Assembly (NCBI RefSeq): GCF_001975705.1
Contig: NZ_CP015093.1
Coordinates: 2,170,001 to 2,234,000, forward strand
From: Salipiger abyssi
GTDB taxonomy: Bacteria > Pseudomonadota > Alphaproteobacteria > Rhodobacterales > Rhodobacteraceae
DNA: 64,000 bases
Direction: 5' to 3'
Of this stretch, positions 5,735 to 54,780 are shown in pieces. Position 1 is the first letter of the stretch. The number at the start of each line of letters is the position of its first letter. Both the position numbers and the translations under genes were made by a program. The notes below the pieces were generated by a model. The model saw only the letters and a list, made by a program, of their open reading frames with translations. It made no database searches and was not told the DNA's origin.

Positions 5735-6067
5735 TCAATTTTGTGCTTGATCCAGTGCACTCGCTTCGTCTTCGAGCGCGGCGAAAAGCCGGTCTTGAAC
5801 ATCCCCAGGAAGCTGAGCGAACTCGCCGCAAATCATGAAATTCAGGTCAATTCGGTGCTCTCGGTACAGGTAGATCATGACCGATCTACCGGGGTAGGAT
5901 TGAGCATTTTCTGAGTTGCTGATTGCCGCCTTGGTGATCTTTGCGGCCTTGCCGAGTTCGGCTTGCCCAAGGCCGGCAGCGTTTCTCGCAGCCCGCAGAC
6001 GCAGGGCTGCGGCCTCCTTGCTGAAATCGCCCGTGCGCGCGAGCGCACTTTTTTCCTCGTAATTCAT
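5735..6067 (-). CDS. short XRE-family prophage repressor (CI-like)
   Basis: 110 residues. Helix-turn-helix of the XRE/Cro-CI type at about 23-77 (LRLRAARNAAGLGQAELGK, then ITKAAISNSENAQS). The C-terminus is short and contains no LexA/S24 peptidase domain (no Ala-Gly cleavage site, no Ser-Lys dyad region), so RecA-driven self-cleavage is not expected. An upstream in-frame start at 6133 would place the operators inside the gene, so ATG 6067 is chosen. The operators and position opposite a Cro-like gene identify it as the lysogenic repressor. Confidence 0.75.
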   Translation of the reverse strand: MNYEEKSALARTGDFSKEAAALRLRAARNAAGLGQAELGKAAKITKAAISNSENAQSYPGRSVMIYLYREHRIDLNFMICGEFAQLPGDVQDRLFAALEDEASALDQAQN

Positions 6068-6073
6068 GCGCGG

Positions 6074-6102
6074 TATTTTCGCATTGGTACAGGAATTGTG
6101 AA
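6074..6102 (-). promoter_or_regulatory. candidate repressor-maintenance promoter
   Basis: Minus strand TTCACA (plus 6102-6097), 17-bp spacer, AAAATA (6079-6074). Transcription would start at about the repressor ATG (6067), giving a leaderless or nearly leaderless mRNA, as known for lambda cI from PRM. OR2 overlaps its -35 and spacer. The match to consensus is moderate. Confidence 0.4.
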
Positions 6103-6104
6103 CG
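6086..6104. promoter_or_regulatory. operator OR2 (degenerate)
   Basis: GGTACA, 7 bp, TGAACG: perfect left arm, 4 of 6 in the right arm. It starts 41 bp from OR1, about four helical turns, and overlaps the candidate repressor promoter, consistent with autoregulation. Confidence 0.5.
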
Positions 6105-6121
6105 GACATAGTTTGTGCGGC

Positions 6122-6150
6122 TTGCAAGTACATAAGTTGTGTACTATCCT
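6122..6150 (+). promoter_or_regulatory. rightward early promoter (PR-like)
   Basis: TTGCAA (6122-6127), 17-bp spacer, TATCCT (6145-6150), reading into the Cro-like gene. The expected transcription start, about 7 nt after the -10, falls on ATG 6157, so the message may be leaderless. OR1 fills the spacer exactly as OL1 does at the leftward promoter. Confidence 0.65.
6127..6145. promoter_or_regulatory. repressor operator OR1 (19-bp palindrome)
   Basis: AGTACA, 7 bp, TGTACT with perfect 6-bp arms. Same length, arm consensus (RGTACA/TGTACY) and promoter position as OL1 at 4204-4222, although the 7-bp centres differ. Confidence 0.75.
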
Positions 6151-20908: not shown

Positions 20909-22271
20909 CGCACTCACGGCGGCGGTCGCGCGCGGGCTGAGCCGGACCAAAGCTCTGTCATCCATCCCCAGCAATCGCGGCGGCTGGATGCCGATCATGG
21001 AGAGCTATGCCGGAGCATGGCAGCAGAACGTTGAGGTCGATGCGCGCGGCGTCTTGGCGAACCCGTTCATCTTCCGCTGCCAAGCTATGATCGCGCGGGA
21101 CATTTCCAAGCTGCGCGTGAAGCTGATGACGAAGGACGGCGCGATCTGGAAGGAAACGACCAGCGCGGCGTTCTCGCCGGTCCTGCGCAAGCCAAACGCC
21201 TATCAGACGCGCAACCAGTTCTGGGAGAGCTATTTCCTGTCGAAGCTGTCGCGGGGCAACACCTATGTCTTGAAGCAGCGTGACGCGCGCCGGGTGGTGA
21301 CCCGGCTGCATGTGCTGGACCCCCAGCGCGTGACACCGCTTGTCAGCGATAGCGGCGAAGTGTTCTATCAGCTTGCGACGGATAATCTCGCGAGCCTTGA
21401 GGTTGATGTGACGGTCCCGGCATCGGAGATCATCCACGACCGCTGGAATTGCCTGTTTCACCCGCTGGTGGGGTTGTCCCCAATCTGGGCAAACGGTGTG
21501 GCAGCCACGCAGGCGCAGAAAATCAGCGAGAGTAGCACGCAGTTTTTCGCGAACCAGTCGCGCCCCGGCGGTATCCTGTCGGCGCCGGGCAAAATCAGCG
21601 ACGAGACGGCGGCGCGGCTCAAGGCCGCGTTCGAGACGAATTACTCGGGCGAGAACGCGGGCAAGATCGCGGTTGTCGGGGATGGCCTGAGCTTCAACCC
21701 GCTGACCGTGGCGGCTGATGACGCGCAGCTTGTGGAGCAGCTCAAGTGGACCTCGGAAACGATTGCCACGACCTTCGGCATTCCGCACTACAAGATTGGC
21801 CTCGGGGCGATGCCCACGGCGAACAATCTTGAGGCATTGAACGTCGAATATTATTCGCAGACCCTGCAAGGACTGATCGAGGACGCCGAAAGCTGTCTCA
21901 ACGAGGCGCTGGGGCTGGACGAGAACACCACGCGATCTGAGTTCGACCTTGACGGCCTTCTGCGCATGGATTCCGCCACGCAGATGGAGACGCTGAAAAC
22001 GGGCGTCGGGGCCGGTATCATCGCGCCGAACGAAGGCCGGGCGAAGTTCGGCTATGGCCCGGTCGCGGGCGGCGAAATGCCGTACCTCCAACAGCAGAAC
22101 TACAGCCTTGAGGCGCTGGCAAAGCGGGACGCGCAGCCGGACCCGTGGGGCGCCGGCCAGCCGGCGCGGCCCGCCGCGCCGGAAGCTGACGACGAAGCCG
22201 GCGAAATGGCGGAGCGCGCTTTCGTGGCCGAAACGCTCTTGGCGATGCGCAAGGCAATGGAGGCGGCATGA
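20901..22271 (+). CDS. HK97-family portal protein
   Basis: 456 residues. Typical portal blocks: DARGVLANPFIFRCQAMIAR, RGNTYVLKQRD, VPASEIIHDRWN, QFFANQSRPGGILSAPGKIS, ETIATTFGIPHYKIG and the C-terminal Ala/Pro-rich tail. It would form the dodecameric DNA channel and packaging motor dock. It overlaps the membrane ORF by 8 bp and the collagen-like gene by 4 bp. Confidence 0.92.
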   Translation: MANALTAAVARGLSRTKALSSIPSNRGGWMPIMESYAGAWQQNVEVDARGVLANPFIFRCQAMIARDISKLRVKLMTKDGAIWKETTSAAFSPVLRKPNAYQTRNQFWESYFLSKLSRGNTYVLKQRDARRVVTRLHVLDPQRVTPLVSDSGEVFYQLATDNLASLEVDVTVPASEIIHDRWNCLFHPLVGLSPIWANGVAATQAQKISESSTQFFANQSRPGGILSAPGKISDETAARLKAAFETNYSGENAGKIAVVGDGLSFNPLTVAADDAQLVEQLKWTSETIATTFGIPHYKIGLGAMPTANNLEALNVEYYSQTLQGLIEDAESCLNEALGLDENTTRSEFDLDGLLRMDSATQMETLKTGVGAGIIAPNEGRAKFGYGPVAGGEMPYLQQQNYSLEALAKRDAQPDPWGAGQPARPAAPEADDEAGEMAERAFVAETLLAMRKAMEAA

Positions 22272-23200
22272 TCGACCCGCAAGTATTTGGCGCAGAGTTG
22301 GCCGGTATCGTGAAAGGGGCTGTTGCGCCACTTCTGGCCCGAATTGACGCGCAGGCAAAGCAGATCGAAGCCCTTGAGCGCGCGGCGGAAGCCCATAGGG
22401 AGCCGCAGGACGGCAAGGACGGGCGCGACGGTGCCGATGCCGACCCGGAACAGGTTGCCGCTCTGGTGGCCGAGAAAATGGCCCCGCAGCTTGAGGCGAT
22501 GCAGGCCGCGATTGACGCAATATCGGAAGCGCCAGAGTTGCCGGACATTCCGGGGATGATCTCTGATGCCGTGGCGAAGGCTGTGGCCGAGATCCCCTCG
22601 CCGAAAGACGGCAAGGACGGCACCAGCGTGACGCCGGAAGACGTGATGCCAGCGCTCGAAAAACGAGTGGACGAACACCTCGCCAGCATCCCCGCGCCCA
22701 AGGATGGTCGCGACGGAATCGACGGCAAGGACGGAGCGCCGGGCGAGCGCGGCGAGAAGGGCGAGCCGGGTGCTGATGGCGTCGGCATGGCGGGCGCGCT
22801 GATTGACCGCAACGGCGAGCTGCACCTGACCATGACGGATGGCAAGGCCCTGGCCTTGGGCGCGGTCGTGGGCAAAGACGGCGCACCGGGCCGGGATGGC
22901 GCGGACGGGCTCGGCTTCGAGGATCTGGAATTCATCGCCGACGAGCAGGGGCGACCTCTGGCGAAGTTCCAGCGCGGCGACGTGGTGAAGACCTTCCGCC
23001 TGCCGTGCATCATCGACCGGGGGCCGTACAAGGCCGCAGGGAGCTATCAGAAGGGCGACGCCGTGAGCTTTGGCGGCTCGCTTTGGATCGCGCAGGGAGA
23101 CACCGCTGAGCGCCCGGAGAGCGGCGCAGGCTGGCGTCTGGCGGTCAAGAAGGGCCGGGACGGTCGCAGCGCCGAGAAGGTGAAGGTTGGCGATGCCTGA
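22268..23200 (+). CDS. collagen-like protein with carbohydrate-binding C-terminus
   Basis: 310 residues: N-terminal coiled coil ([20 protein letters not shown]), then scattered GxY triplets ([26 protein letters not shown]) forming short collagen-like stretches that probably trimerise, and at about 255-300 a chitin-binding type 5/12-like module ([32 protein letters not shown]). Surface-exposed decoration or head fibre is likely. Its location between portal and head-tail connector suggests a head-neck fibre. Confidence 0.65.
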
Positions 23201-23937: not shown

Positions 23938-24357
23938 TTAGGGGTCGTCTGGCGGGTTCTCAACTACCCATGGGTCGAACACGCTGTGAAGCCATTCATA
24001 CATGGTTCCGATGGTTATGCCGGTCAGTTGAGAGGAGTCTCTTTGGATTCCATTCACCAAAGAAATCGGGTCTTGAACCCCATGAACGTCTCTTATGTAC
24101 CTCATAAGGTTGAAATAATCGTCTTTCAGTCGAGCCCCAACACGGCTTGGTGAAAACGTCACGGCTGCCGCGCACGCCAGCATCAAGTCATCGTCAGCCG
24201 TGATGGGCGCCGGAAACTTCTCTTCGAGCACTGCGACGATCTCGCTGTTCATTGAACGACCATTGGCCTCAGCGGCGAGCTTGATCCGGTCCCGCATCCC
24301 GTCTGGAAGGCGGAGCATGTAGCGGTCTTTGAACTGGTGCTGGTCATTGTCGGACAT
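23938..24357 (-). CDS. Arc/Mnt-family ribbon-helix-helix repressor
   Basis: 139 residues. Residues about 8-42 (FKDRYMLRLPDGMRDRIKLA, EANGRSMNSEIVAVLEEK) are an Arc-type ribbon-helix-helix; the remaining ~95 residues are an extra C-terminal domain absent from Arc. It is transcribed against the morphogenetic operon and divergently from an antirepressor, like mnt in the P22 immI region. Three palindromic sites lie between the two genes. Confidence 0.8.
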   Translation of the reverse strand: MSDNDQHQFKDRYMLRLPDGMRDRIKLAAEANGRSMNSEIVAVLEEKFPAPITADDDLMLACAAAVTFSPSRVGARLKDDYFNLMRYIRDVHGVQDPISLVNGIQRDSSQLTGITIGTMYEWLHSVFDPWVVENPPDDP

Positions 24358-24360
24358 GAT

Positions 24361-24432
24361 TGCCCAGTGGGCATTTTTTAAGTGTTGACACAATCCCTAC
24401 CCAGTGGGCATAAGACATGCACCCACTGGGCA
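24361..24432. promoter_or_regulatory. three palindromic operators of the immI-like cassette
   Basis: TGCCCAGTGGGCA (24361-24373, perfect 6-bp arms), TACCCAGTGGGCA (24398-24410) and CACCCACTGGGCA (24420-24432). All share CCCA-S-TGGGCA. The middle site lies in the spacer of the rightward promoter and the last lies just downstream of it, so RHH binding would block antirepressor transcription. Confidence 0.75.
24385..24414 (+). promoter_or_regulatory. antirepressor promoter
   Basis: TTGACA (24385-24390), 18-bp spacer, CATAAG (24409-24414). The -35 is consensus, the -10 weak. It would drive the antirepressor at 24446 independently of the late operon. Confidence 0.6.
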
Positions 24433-24445
24433 TAAGGAGTGTGAA

Positions 24446-25021
24446 GTGACAAATATCGTGACCGTGGACTTCAGGGGAGACACCCTGTTCGGTTTTCAGG
24501 AGGGCGATCATATCTTCGTCGCCCTTCGTCCCATCGTAGAGGCGATGGGAATGGACTGGTCTGGACAGCTTCAGCGGGTGAAGCGTGACCCAATCTTGTC
24601 CGAAGGTGTGGGTATCATGCCCACACCTTTCGGGCGTGGCGGCGACCAAGAGGCGGTTTGCATCAAGCTCGACCTTCTCAATGGCTGGCTCTTCACCATC
24701 GACACGAACCGGATCAAGGACGACTCGGTGCGCCAGAAGGTGCTGACCTACCAGCGCGAGTGCTACCGGGTGCTTCACGACCATTTCGCCGGCAAGGCGA
24801 AGCACCAAGGGGGGGGCTTGGCGGACGACGAGGATCTGGCGCAGAGCCGGGGAAGCAAGCTTTCGCAAATCAAAGAGGTCCGTATGATCTTCGGCGCGGA
24901 AGCGGCTGCGCAGCTCTACCTACAGTTCGGCTTCGAGATTGTTCCCGCCATGATCGACCGGACCCGACAGCCTACCCTTTTCGACTATGATCAGATCAAA
25001 TCCGTTGGGACAAACGCATGA
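24446..25021 (+). CDS. P22-type antirepressor (Ant N-domain)
   Basis: 191 residues from GTG 24446 (AAGGAG 6 nt upstream). The N-terminal domain, FRGDTLFGFQEGDHIFVALR to VLTYQRECYRVLHDHF, is the P22_AR_N family; P22 Ant inactivates several phage repressors by direct binding. The C-terminal region (KLSQIKEVRMIFGAEAAAQL) is short. It probably antagonises the XRE repressor of this or a superinfecting phage. It overlaps the second RHH gene by 4 bp. Confidence 0.82.
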   Translation: MTNIVTVDFRGDTLFGFQEGDHIFVALRPIVEAMGMDWSGQLQRVKRDPILSEGVGIMPTPFGRGGDQEAVCIKLDLLNGWLFTIDTNRIKDDSVRQKVLTYQRECYRVLHDHFAGKAKHQGGGLADDEDLAQSRGSKLSQIKEVRMIFGAEAAAQLYLQFGFEIVPAMIDRTRQPTLFDYDQIKSVGTNA

Positions 25022-25197
25022 CACAGCTGCGCACGATGACCGACCGCTACATGCTCCGACTCCCCGACGGCTGGAGAGACACGATCAAATCGGAAGCAGG
25101 AAAGGCTCATCATTCGATGAACAGCGAAATCCTGAACGCGATACAAACCGCCATGCGCATCAAGGGGGTGCAGCTTGAAGCGCCCGCCCAAAAGTAA
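25018..25197 (+). CDS. second Arc-like ribbon-helix-helix protein
   Basis: 59 residues, ATG 25018 to TAA 25197, close to the size of P22 Arc (53). TDRYMLRLPDGWRDTIKSEA and HHSMNSEILNAIQTAMRIK give the RHH strand and two helices; the DRYMLRLPDG block is nearly identical to the divergent RHH at 23938. Co-transcribed with the antirepressor, it would feed back on the shared operators, as Arc does for ant in P22. Confidence 0.75.
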   Translation: MTQLRTMTDRYMLRLPDGWRDTIKSEAGKAHHSMNSEILNAIQTAMRIKGVQLEAPAQK

Positions 25198-25261
25198 AGC
25201 CGCCGGGACGGCCATCCCGACGGCTTCGATGAATTCCACCCACGAAGATAGGAAATTCCCT

Positions 25262-25603
25262 ATGAATATGCTTGATCGCCGCGGCTTTTTCAAGTCCGCA
25301 TCCGCCGCGCTCGCGGCAACCGCAACCCCGGCGCTGGCCTTCCAGGCGCCGATCACCGAAACGCCGGACCACCCCGACTGGTGGAAGCGCATTGTCGAGG
25401 TCATCGACCATCTTGAGGCAGCGGACCCGCACGAGATGCACCTGTCCATCGCGGCCAAGGCGTTCGCTGCCAACGAAATCCGCAAGGCGCTGGATATGCC
25501 GCAGCGCAACGAGAAGCTGGTGAGCGAATACCGCGATGCCACAGCGATCTTCATCGCCAACGGCAAGCGGCGGGAATCCGCGCTCACGGGAGGGCTGGTC
25601 TGA
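25262..25603 (+). CDS. Tat-signal accessory protein
   Basis: 113 residues. MNMLDRRGFFKSASAALAAT is a twin-arginine signal (RRGFFK, then a hydrophobic stretch ending near ALAF), predicting export of a folded protein. The mature part (DHPDWWKRIVEVIDHLEAAD ... AAKAFAANEIRKALDMPQRN) is helical with no recognised domain. An AGGAA lies about 9 nt upstream. An earlier TTG in frame is possible. It is coupled to the next antirepressor gene by a 1-bp overlap. Confidence 0.6.
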   Translation: MNMLDRRGFFKSASAALAATATPALAFQAPITETPDHPDWWKRIVEVIDHLEAADPHEMHLSIAAKAFAANEIRKALDMPQRNEKLVSEYRDATAIFIANGKRRESALTGGLV

Positions 25604-26364
25604 TGGGTATCGTTCCGTTCAACTTCGACGGCGCGCCGATCCGCGTGCTGGAAATCAGCGGCGACCCGTGGTTCGTCGGCAAGGATGTGGCTGGTGCGCT
25701 TGGATATAGCAACCCGCAGAAAGCCCTGCGCGATCATTGCCGGAAGGCACAAGATGTAGGGGGTGAACGAAACGTTCACCCCTCCGATCTGGACCCGCAG
25801 ACCAAGATCATCCCGGAGGGCGACGTGTACCGCCTGATCGTCCGGTCCAAGCTCCCGTCCGCCGAACGCTTCGAGGCTCTGGTGATGGACGAGATCCTGC
25901 CGACGATCCGCAAGACCGGCGGCTACGGGGCGCAACAAGCCGCGACCATCGACCTGTCCGACCCGTCGCAACTGGTGCCGCTGCTGACCAGCTACGCGCA
26001 GCGGACACAGGTCGCAGAGGCCAAGGTGACAGAGATGACGCCGAAGGCCGAGGCGTTCGACCGGCTGGACACGGCAGAAGGGGATTTGACTGTCCGCCCG
26101 GCGGCGAAGGTTCTGAACTATCCGGAGCGAAAGCTGACGCGCTGGATGGAGTTGAACCGCTGGGCCTTCCGGCAGAACGGTCGCGGGCCGCTTCAAGCCT
26201 ACGTCGATAAGCGCAACGTTGGGTATCTCTCCCACAGGCTGCGCCACTTCGATGACCCGAAGACCGGGGAGCCGAAGGTCGAGGTCACGTTGATGATCAC
26301 GCCTAAGGGTCTGGCAAAGCTCGCAAAGGTACTGCCGAAGGAGGGCGGCGCGGCGCTGCACTAA
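25603..26364 (+). CDS. Bro-N antirepressor with C-terminal ANT-like domain
   Basis: 253 residues. Bro-N domain at about 5-105 (VLEISGDPWFVGKDVAGALG ... KALRDHCRKA ... LPSAERFEALVMDEILPTIR). The C-terminal KilAC/ANT-like domain is at about 130-250 (KAEAFDRLDTAEGDLTVRPA, AKVLNYPERKLTRWMELNRW). Such proteins act as antirepressors or regulators in temperate phages. This is the second antirepressor of the cassette; hairpins follow. Confidence 0.8.
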   Translation: MGIVPFNFDGAPIRVLEISGDPWFVGKDVAGALGYSNPQKALRDHCRKAQDVGGERNVHPSDLDPQTKIIPEGDVYRLIVRSKLPSAERFEALVMDEILPTIRKTGGYGAQQAATIDLSDPSQLVPLLTSYAQRTQVAEAKVTEMTPKAEAFDRLDTAEGDLTVRPAAKVLNYPERKLTRWMELNRWAFRQNGRGPLQAYVDKRNVGYLSHRLRHFDDPKTGEPKVEVTLMITPKGLAKLAKVLPKEGGAALH

Positions 26365-26370
26365 GTGAAA

Positions 26371-26409
26371 ACCTCAGGCAACTGAGGTGGCAGGGGCGGG
26401 AGACCGCCC
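26371..26409. terminator. paired GNRA-loop hairpins, likely bidirectional terminator
   Basis: ACCTCAG-GCAA-CTGAGGT (26371-26388), then GGGCGG-GAGA-CCGCCC (26394-26409). Both stems are perfect and both loops are GNRA tetraloops. They lie between the convergent Bro-N and signal-peptide genes and probably isolate the cassette from the late transcripts. Confidence 0.5.
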
Positions 26410-26416
26410 TTGCCTA

Positions 26417-26683
26417 TCACTCTTCGCATGCTTTGGAATAAAGCAAGGTGACGAGTACCGCGTCCATGGCCATTTGCCCGGGATCGACGGTAACGGGGTT
26501 TTTGGCGTAGGCATCACAGGCCCCGCTTTCCTCTGAGGTGCAGACTTCCGAAATAGCGGCAAGCGCGGCCATAGCTTGGCTGAGCGTATCTGCGTTCCGC
26601 AAAAGGGCATTGCACGGATCGAGGTCTTGCGCTGCGGCGGGAATTGCCAAGCAGGTGGCGGCCATGATGGCGGCTAGTCTCAT
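26417..26683 (-). CDS. small Sec-secreted Cys-containing protein
   Basis: 88 residues. MRLAAIMAATCLAIPAAAQD is a Sec signal peptide with likely cleavage after AAA or AQ. The mature part is about 68 residues with four cysteines (DPCNALL, EVCTSEESGACD, SKACEE), suggesting two disulfides in the periplasm. GGAGG about 6 nt before ATG 26683 supports the start. Opposite strand to the late genes, so it is a moron probably expressed in the lysogen. Confidence 0.7.
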   Translation of the reverse strand: MRLAAIMAATCLAIPAAAQDLDPCNALLRNADTLSQAMAALAAISEVCTSEESGACDAYAKNPVTVDPGQMAMDAVLVTLLYSKACEE

Positions 26684-53247: not shown

Positions 53248-53742
53248 TTACCGCGCCTTTTTCGCCCGGCGCAGCAGCATGTCGCGCTTGGTCTTGCTCA
53301 GGTGATCGAAATACATACGCCCGTTCAGGTGGTCGATCTGATGCTGCACCGAGGTCGCCCAGAGCCCGACGAAATCGCGCTCTTCGATCTCGCCCTCGGC
53401 ATTCATGAAGCGCACAGTCACCGCGCGCGGGCGCTCGATCTTGGCCCAGACGCCGGGCAGGTTGGGGCTGGCCTCGTCATGGGCGCGCAGCTTGATCGAG
53501 GCGTGCAGGATCTCGGGATTGGCCATGCGCACCGCTTGGCCGCGCTCCTCGGAGGCATCGACCACCGCCAGCCGCAGCATCACGCCGATCTGCGGCGCGC
53601 CCATGCCGACGCCGGGCATCGCCTCCATCGTGTCGATCATGTCCTGCCAGACCGCGCGCACCTCGTCGGTGATCGCCGCGACCGGCGCGGCAGGGCTGCG
53701 CAGGCGCTTGTCGGGCCAGGGCAGGCAGGGGCGCACGCTCAT
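53248..53742 (-). CDS. degenerate third peptide deformylase paralogue
   Basis: 164 residues. Motif 1 survives as PGVGMGAPQIG, but motif 2 reads DEASPNLPG where active enzymes have EGCLS, so the metal-binding cysteine is missing. Motif 3 reads QHQIDH instead of HExxH, so the catalytic Glu is Gln. It is therefore probably inactive as a deformylase yet has an intact reading frame. Its ATG overlaps the preceding deformylase gene by 4 bp. Confidence 0.8.
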   Translation of the reverse strand: MSVRPCLPWPDKRLRSPAAPVAAITDEVRAVWQDMIDTMEAMPGVGMGAPQIGVMLRLAVVDASEERGQAVRMANPEILHASIKLRAHDEASPNLPGVWAKIERPRAVTVRFMNAEGEIEERDFVGLWATSVQHQIDHLNGRMYFDHLSKTKRDMLLRRAKKAR

Positions 53743-54236
53743 CGTTGCGCCTCGTAGTCCCGCATCAGCCGCGCCGCGACCTCCGGGTCGAGCCGGTCGA
53801 AATGCACCAGCCCGTCGAGATGGTCGTATTCGTGCTGCGCGATCACCGCCTCGGCGCCTTCGAAGACACGCTCCTGCGCGGCGCCGGTCAGGTCGGTGAA
53901 GCCCATCCGCACGCGCGTCGCGCGGGTGACCCGCGCGGTGACGCCGGGGATCGAGAGACAGCCTTCGTCGCCGGCTTGGGTCTCGCCCGACACCTCGAGA
54001 ATATGCGGGTTGATCAGCGCGAGCGGGGTCATGTCTCCGTCCTTCCAGCCCGCATCCATGACAAAGACCCGGCTCAGCACCCCGACCTGCGGCGCCGCCA
54101 GCCCGCGCCCGGGGGCGGCATACATGGTCTCGAACATGTCGGTGATCAGATCGCCGAGCGAGGCCGGGTCGGCGACCTCGGCACAGGGCTGTTTCAACCG
54201 GGGATCGGGCCAGAGAAGGATGTCGCGCAGGGCCAT
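53739..54236 (-). CDS. def: peptide deformylase, second copy
   Basis: 165 residues. All three motifs are intact: PGRGLAAPQVG, DEGCLSIPG and QHEYDHLDG. It removes the N-formyl group from nascent proteins using a metal held by Cys and two His. It is 13 bp downstream of the first copy, in one transcription unit with it and the degenerate third copy. Confidence 0.9.
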   Translation of the reverse strand: MALRDILLWPDPRLKQPCAEVADPASLGDLITDMFETMYAAPGRGLAAPQVGVLSRVFVMDAGWKDGDMTPLALINPHILEVSGETQAGDEGCLSIPGVTARVTRATRVRMGFTDLTGAAQERVFEGAEAVIAQHEYDHLDGLVHFDRLDPEVAARLMRDYEAQR

Positions 54237-54249
54237 CAGACCGCCACCG

Positions 54250-54780
54250 TCATGCGCGCGCGCGCTCGCGCTTCAGCTTGACCATCTTGCGGGTGATCAT
54301 CTGGCGCTTGAGCGGCTTGAGATAGTCGATGAAGAGCTTGCCGTCGAGGTGGTCGATCTCGTGCTGCACGCAGGTCGCCCAGAGCCCGTCGAATGTCTCG
54401 GCATGCAGCTTGCCGTCGCGGTCGAGCCATTCCACATCGACAACCTTCGGACGCTCGACCTCGGCATATTGGTCGGGGATCGACAGGCAGCCCTCTTCGT
54501 AGACATTGCGCTCGTCCGAGCTGGCCAGCACGCGCGGGTTGAACATCACCAGCGGGCGCGGATCCTCGCCATTGTCGGGCTTGGCGCAATCCAGCACGAT
54601 CAGCCGCGACAGCACGCCGATCTGCGGCGCCGCCAGCCCGATGCCGGGCGCCTCGTACATGGTTTCCAGCATGTCGTCGGCCAGAACGCGCAGATCGTCC
54701 GACAGATCGGGCACAGGATCGCAGAGCTTTTTCAGCCGCGGATCGGGGTGGATGAGAATGGGCCGCTTCATGCACATCAT
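54250..54780 (-). CDS. def: peptide deformylase, primary copy
   Basis: 176 residues, standard length. PGIGLAAPQIG, YEEGCLSIPDQ and QHEIDHLDGKLF are the canonical motifs. First in the tandem trio and most similar to housekeeping Def of alphaproteobacteria. In many bacteria def is followed by fmt; no fmt is present in this stretch. Confidence 0.93.
   Translation of the reverse strand: MMCMKRPILIHPDPRLKKLCDPVPDLSDDLRVLADDMLETMYEAPGIGLAAPQIGVLSRLIVLDCAKPDNGEDPRPLVMFNPRVLASSDERNVYEEGCLSIPDQYAEVERPKVVDVEWLDRDGKLHAETFDGLWATCVQHEIDHLDGKLFIDYLKPLKRQMITRKMVKLKRERARA

Follow-up and report, generated by a model that had tools for sequence, protein, structure and literature searches.

What does a block with its own promoter and its own repressor genes do in the middle of a phage late operon? 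The question arises from a locus of Salipiger abyssi (NCBI RefSeq assembly GCF_001975705.1, contig NZ_CP015093.1), which we analyzed within a stretch of 64,000 nucleotides (positions 2,170,001 to 2,234,000 of the forward strand), hereafter called the window; positions are counted from its first letter. According to our analysis, the cassette at 23938-26683 is probably an antirepressor module of the immI type known from phage P22, that entered the late operon as a moron and is controlled by Arc-type repressors and a sar-like antisense RNA. We put the probability of this reading at about 0.75.

A cassette with its own promoter inside the late operon

The first-pass annotation of the window had described a block between a head closure and a tail completion gene, and every gene and site that it named was recovered at its position, in agreement with Pfam and PHROG matches (Table 1). 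The order is head closure, a divergent arc1, three operators around a TTGACA promoter, ant1, arc2, a gene for a small protein with a signal resembling those of twin-arginine translocation (Tat), ant2, a gene on the opposite strand and, finally, tail terminator. The flanking genes match Phage_HCP and Tail_completion_gp17 in Pfam and the head closure and tail terminator PHROGs, and the cassette lies between them inside the late operon, surrounded by terminase, capsid, portal, major tail and tape measure genes (PHROGs). Two traits are those of a moron: the cassette has its own promoter, and in viral contig L064 the head closure, gp10-like and tail terminator genes are contiguous, the cassette of that contig sitting elsewhere.

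The cassette carries divergent long Mnt-like and short Arc-like ribbon-helix-helix (RHH) genes, the short one being second in its operon in the window. The reported arrangement, with an Arc gene after ant and with two antirepressor genes, is real in the window. The start of arc2 overlaps the stop of ant1 (ATGA) and one base is common to the Tat-like gene and ant2, so that translational coupling is likely.

Operators and long Arc proteins vary together

Besides the three CCCA-S-TGGGCA operators reported earlier, the window has no exact CCCASTGGGCA site, and no excess was seen in it when two mismatches were allowed. Over the whole genome (5.26 Mb), CCCASTGGGCAT occurs three times, always in the cassette, and the reversed control gave no copy. 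Since the operators are unique in the genome and its only two Arc-family genes also lie in the cassette, the circuit is local. The three-site set was matched by none of 40 shuffles. The promoter is not listed by the promoter-scan tool because the latter requires a T at position 6 of the -10 element, which TTGACA-18-CATAAG does not have.

To place these sites among related ones, 42 Arc-pair regions were reduced to 29 by merging near-identical cases, with pairs more than 200 bases apart and one duplicate frame left out. The TTGACACAAT of the window promoter fits TTGAC[GA]C[AC]A, an element present in 20 of the 29 regions, and some TTGAC is found in 26. For a strict set of three palindromes, with sequences that differ between loci, none of 40 shuffles did as well in 12 of these divergent Arc pairs, 1-2 of 40 did in four and 3-9 in four others. 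The independent viral contig L064 has nearly the operators of the window (one mismatch in two of the three) in the same layout.

In each region, a script picked the palindrome lying at a set distance from TTGAC, and its bases were related to the residues of the long Arc aligned to Arc positions 9 and 11, which we take, from Arc/Mnt work, to be DNA-contact residues. Twenty-one of the 29 regions were usable, five having weak palindromes and three no TTGAC; a mis-parsed row (L070) was kept in the comparison. Our results showed that K with I or V goes with GG at half-site positions 2-3 (7/7) and K with M goes with GT (5/5). The remaining combinations were Q and M with AT (2/2), Q and T with AT (one), Q and V with AC (one), H and R with CG (one), and R and M with GC once and with AC twice (the window and L064, where the right half-site has GC). 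Mutual information between residues and operator amounted to 2.17 bits, a value reached by none of 20,000 permutations of these related loci.

Across loci, operator bases thus change together with the residues at the contact positions of Arc, which makes it probable that the long Arc recognizes the palindromes. Both Arcs of the window carry R and M, and for this reason the arc2 product may bind the same sites as the arc1 product. The likeness to immI proposed in the first-pass annotation is strengthened by this covariation and by the sar-like element after arc2.

A sar-like antisense element after arc2

Rfam family RF00262 places the sar RNA of P22 exactly from arc stop+1 to ant start-1 (68 nt, minus strand). 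In the window, the gap between arc2 and the Tat-like gene is 64 nt long, with a hairpin at the arc2 stop. A hairpin at this place has a z value below -2 in 10 of 14 modules, -1.6 in L066 and near 0 in L063, L069 and L004. Across 15 aligned sequences, an 11-pair helix has 91.9% of its cells paired and 9 of its 11 pairs altered on both sides, although the structure was derived from the same 15 sequences that scored it, which favours it. None of 500 shuffles reached any of five measures, and slid controls gave at most 55.3%.

In 12 of 20 modules, P22 included, an antisense promoter with its start 55-76 nt past arc2 reaches a score of 8 or more out of 12. The same criterion found none in 11 Arc pairs of the integrase type (three more were unscored) and none at 58 other ORF (open reading frame) starts of the window, controls that were picked greedily and include a few cassette or wrong-strand ORFs. 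Fisher values for the antisense promoter were 5e-10 and 0.99, the loci being related. Hairpins and antisense promoters also follow the short Arc in Salmonella phage SPN3UB and Klebsiella phage KP12, with starts at +72 and +69. The conserved promoter and hairpin lead us to predict an antisense RNA in the window and, since both recur across modules at the position of P22 sar, sar-type antisense control may be a widespread part of Arc/antirepressor modules.

Alternatively, the hairpin could act in the sense RNA as an attenuator or processing site, the antisense promoter match then reflecting conserved coding at the start of the next gene. The symmetry of the hairpin, the position of the -35 match within codons and the presence of ATGAATATG in several of the following genes would all agree with this. 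However, the element stands at a constant distance before genes of different families (Tat-like, Rha, KilAC and P22 ant), and despite these differences AAT is the second codon in 9 of 16 genes that follow arc2, compared to 4 of 121 control ORFs. Moreover, the U-rich tract that follows the stem in the window is on the antisense strand, and the sar RNA of P22 is known at this very place. We consider a sense-RNA function rather unlikely.

A model of the predicted antisense element (R1) was trained on eight loci, the window among them. In 647 kb it matched, besides the window, L053 (E 8e-8), L063 (3.5e-6), L064 (2.5e-4), L065 (0.009) and L067 (0.67), each match lying at the 3' end of arc2 or reaching across it, while six other matches (E 0.19-4.6) fell on the opposite strand of the window and L063 or at chance places. 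R1 also found Paracoccus phage vB_PyeM_Pyei1 at the expected place (E 4.2e-6 in 18.5 kb) and KP12 (E 8.7e-4 in 22.7 kb), and it gave no match at the post-arc2 place of SPN3UB. Over 292 genomes at E<=1e-3, eight genomes were retrieved, corresponding to five training loci, L053 and two weak matches. A second weak match in KP12 (L130 2449-2518, E 0.037) lies just before a gene annotated KilA.

Several of our results weigh against an Arc- and sar-controlled module. The strict operator triple is absent in 9 of the 29 Arc pairs, and the promoter scores refer to the consensus of E. coli. The loci share ancestry, so that permutation and Fisher values overstate the association. Pyei1, taken out of sample (Q and M, half-sites TAG), agrees at position 2 and disagrees at position 3. 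The antisense promoter scores below 8 in 8 of the 20 modules, with 7 in L064, L067 and L068 and 6 or less in L042, L069, L073, L063 (integrase type) and L004. The Rfam sar covariance model (RF00262) has no match in the window, nor in L006 and L064-L068. In the 647 kb, R1 missed L004, L042, L043, L066, L069, L072, L073 and P22, and its chance-level match at L042 5208 (E 0.55) outranks the true match in L067. Its two weakest genome matches were rejected as chance terminators with no Arc gene near.

Related modules and their insertion sites

P22_AR_N occurs in only 3 of 385 genomes of the class, and arc2 was therefore used as the anchor of the survey. A search of 248 genomes of the family with ant1 gave two matches, in its own genome and in Pseudodonghicola flavimaris IC7 (G138). 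arc2 matched 31 of 390 genomes of the order. Two divergent Arc ORFs are held by 27 of the 29 loci L008-L036, the other two being near contig ends, and each pair comprises one long-tailed and one short-tailed Arc. By eye, the genes after the short Arc define two classes, one leading into antirepressor or Tat-like genes and the other into integrase genes. Pairs shortly before integrase-like genes, often with TTGACGCAAT, were seen in this way in many genomes of the order (L038, L040, L041, L044, L045, L047-L049, L051-L053, L055 and L056).

In the viral contigs L064, L065 and L066, the divergent arc1 and arc2 are followed by Tat-like and Rha/KilAC-like genes in either order; L064 has no ant1. In the genus of the host, G088 carries divergent arc1 and arc2, then a Tat-like and an antirepressor gene; this module is flanked on one side by a head morphogenesis gene, next to which HicAB-like genes stand (by eye), and on the other by the tail genes of a different phage. 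Modules sit between small tail protein and tape measure genes in L064 and L066, after the tape measure gene in L069, after head morphogenesis genes in G088 and G386 and, by eye, between ssb-like and terminase genes in L065 and after a lysis-like gene in L037. At L073 5969-8261, an Arc pair, a KilA-N gene and a Tat-family gene lie near tail-fibre-like and ejection-protein-like genes (flanks by eye), resembling the position of the ant moron of P22. Plasmid records gave no DNA match to the cassette and three weak matches to arc2.

Exchange of domains between modules

Comparison of the modules suggests that parts are swapped near domain borders. The C-terminal module of ant1 is common to the Bro-N protein of P. 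flavimaris (37% over 76 aa, 2e-15 in a single comparison), and a search of 50,697 phage records with it retrieved none at E 0.01; arc2 is 81% identical in P. flavimaris. The long Arcs of the window and G088 are 43% identical over 126 aa, with the tail best conserved and a different DNA-contact strand. Their Tat-like proteins share 36 of the first 39 residues and no similarity was reported beyond, and ant2 shares its KilAC part (31% over 140 aa) with the G088 antirepressor, the N-terminal domain being Bro-N in the window and Rha-like in G088 (similarity to proteins of L006 and L064). At the DNA level, 84% identity extends over 25185-25377, that is, the end of arc2, the hairpin, the leader and the signal peptide.

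The Tat-signal protein of the first-pass annotation holds in part, since the RRGFF motif is present while the Pfam TAT_signal score (15.9 bits) is below the cut-off of 22.7. Its membership in the Tat family of the other cassettes was rejected: its mature part reached E 1.1 against a leave-one-out profile, with no match for L065 and E 82 for L037. AlphaFold2 predictions of the family from 4 sequences (mean pLDDT, predicted local distance difference test, 54.8) were too poor to use. The small Tat-signal family is found in 67 of 380 genomes at E<=0.01, with 25 matches below 1e-5, and lies in prophage regions after Arc pairs or beside XRE-like genes (L042, L107, L113, L108, L109, L115 and L118). 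Members scanned had no above-cut-off match in Pfam (two members) or NCBIfam (four). The protein encoded at 26417-26683 had no match in Pfam, PHROGs, NCBIfam or PADLOC at the limits used.

The block could also be a relic, or a lysogenic-conversion moron for exported-like proteins in which the antirepressors are passengers. This would be in line with the recurrence of Tat-family genes in prophages beside other regulators (XRE by eye in L108, L109, L115 and L118), and a mature part that is not demonstrably of that family, as in the protein of the window, would fit decay. Yet a relic is hard to reconcile with open ORFs and coupled starts, and with antirepressor genes that are retained while their N-terminal domains are exchanged; we regard this explanation as quite unlikely.

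RHH proteins are common as antitoxins, and HicA/HicB-like genes lie beside the G088 module (L107 11920-12536, by eye), which could point to a toxin-antitoxin-like or anti-defence module with RHH antitoxins. The downstream genes, however, are of antirepressor families, and this candidate was rejected after eight proteins were scanned with PADLOC without a match; we consider it highly improbable.

We lean slightly towards the view that the three layers of control of P22 (Mnt-like, Arc-like and sar RNA), far from being peculiar to it, form a widespread mobile chassis that phages of both alpha- and gammaproteobacteria use, with exchangeable payloads and a code that relates RHH proteins to operators. 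The payloads would be Tat-signal proteins and antirepressors whose N-terminal domains belong to four or more families (P22_AR_N, Bro-N, Rha and KilA-N).

Comparison with known systems

The first-pass annotation had taken the location for new, which it is not. In P22, too, immI is located within the late operon (PMC8022706, PMC2629481), and the modules of Pyei1, L064, L066, L069, G088, G386 and SPN3UB are similarly placed. According to PMC2629481, the ant moron of P22-like phages comprises mnt, arc, sar, ant and sieA, and morons are absent from the rest of those morphogenetic clusters. P22 immI (X01916) and the cassette share divergent long and short RHH genes, a promoter between them, a P22_AR_N-type antirepressor, a hairpin after arc and the late-operon position; the antisense RNA is known in P22 and predicted in the window. 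They differ in that ant1 precedes arc2 in the window, where arc stands between promoter and antirepressor only for ant2. In addition, the window has a Tat-like gene, a Bro-N/KilAC antirepressor and three operators of one sequence, and lacks an Rfam sar match.

In Pyei1 (MK291445, p52-p57), a divergent Arc pair is followed by a Rha/KilAC gene and a Tat-like gene (p57, by eye), and a sar-like element is present, the module lying between tail chaperone and tape measure genes. Unlike the window, Pyei1 has no ant1 before arc2, its operators are different, and it has the tail sheath and baseplate genes of a contractile tail. Its Arc and KilAC genes are already in the deposited annotation, while the available text of its description attributes lysogeny control to XRE CI/Cro repressors only and mentions neither KilAC nor antirepressor (PMC6536676). 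The word antirepressor is likewise absent from the available text of a survey of Rhodobacteraceae prophages (PMC8224337). In the accessible portions of open-licence PMC literature, we found no account of a sar-like RNA outside P22-like phages or of Arc-operator covariation.

SPN3UB (gp19-gp22) and KP12 share the divergent Arc pair followed by antirepressor-type genes, a few genes from the major tail protein in SPN3UB and with adjacent genes annotated Rha and KilA in KP12. They differ from the window in that the annotation of the stretches read includes neither a P22_AR_N nor a Tat-like gene. P. flavimaris IC7 (locus L062) shares arc1, three operators, ant1, arc2 and ant2 in this order; there, ant1 is Bro-N, ant2 is Rha/KilAC and the operators are GTCCTWAGGAC, on a contig of 3489 bases that is too short to place the module. 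The gene order for which the first-pass annotation proposed a search therefore recurs in P. flavimaris, and the exact set of the window is a mosaic variant; the principle and the late-operon location of an antirepressor moron were already known from P22-like phages. Antirepressors of the P1 type have KilAC, like ant2 with its ANT/KilAC domain, and differ in being controlled by c4 RNA, not by Arc.

Proposed mechanism

In the lysogen, the long, Mnt-like Arc would occupy the three operators, keep the rightward promoter off and limit its own synthesis. Upon entry of the DNA into a cell without Arc1, or upon loss of Arc1, the promoter would fire and Ant1, Arc2, the Tat-like protein and Ant2 would be made, until Arc2 built up and shut the promoter. 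The sar-like RNA, which would start where the gene after arc2 begins and end at the arc2 stop, could damp translation of the Tat-like protein and of Ant2, whose gene is coupled, and spare the upstream ant1. From their families we infer an antirepressor role for Ant1 and Ant2, which would inactivate repressors of the XRE/CI type, either those of this prophage or those of a resident one; an XRE-like gene at 5735-6133 (by eye) is a candidate target by position only. By analogy with sieA of the P22 moron, we would guess that the exported-like proteins exclude other phages.

If this holds, the peculiarity of one Salmonella phage would become a comparative system with many natural Arc/operator pairs, in which specificity tracks two residues, together with predicted antisense RNAs that Rfam does not cover. 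It would also suggest how phages silence antirepressors in the middle of a late operon, and antirepressor domains, Arc heads and signal peptides would be exchanged at sharp borders.

Coordinates and neighbouring genes

Table 1. Position and supporting evidence of the genes, sites and predicted elements of the cassette
Feature	Position	Strand	Evidence
arc1, long Arc/Mnt-type RHH repressor, 139 aa	23938..24357	-	Pfam Arc 6.6e-15
Operator 1	24363..24373	+	CCCAGTGGGCA
Promoter TTGACA (24385-24390), 18 nt, CATAAG (24409-24414)	24385..24414	+	Sequence; 10 of 12 consensus positions
Operator 2, overlapping -10	24400..24410	+	Exact-site search
Operator 3	24422..24432	+	Exact-site search
ant1, P22_AR_N antirepressor (putative)	24446..25021	+	Pfam 1.1e-31; GTG start preferred, after AAGGAG
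arc2, short Arc-type RHH, 59 aa	25018..25197	+	Pfam Arc 8e-10
Predicted sar-like antisense RNA, hairpin about 25198-25225 just past arc2 stop	25189..25262	-	Promoter and covarying hairpin
Tat-signal-like small protein, 113 aa	25262..25603	+	RRGFF motif; Pfam TAT_signal below cut-off
Predicted P_sar-like promoter TTGAAA-17-CATATT, start near 25258	25265..25293	-	Promoter scoring
ant2, Bro-N + ANT (KilAC) antirepressor (putative)	25603..26364	+	Pfam 1.2e-23 and 4.2e-20
Terminator-like hairpin for the opposite-strand gene	26371..26388	-	Hairpin scan: 10 such sites in 10 kb vs 7.6 expected
Signal-peptide-like 88-aa protein, without family	26417..26683	-	No match in Pfam, PHROGs, NCBIfam or PADLOC

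Outside the cassette, two observations were made by eye. A collagen-like protein with G-x-y repeats is encoded at 22268-23200, between the portal and head-tail adaptor genes, and three neighbouring minus-strand ORFs at 53248-54780 are peptide-deformylase-like.

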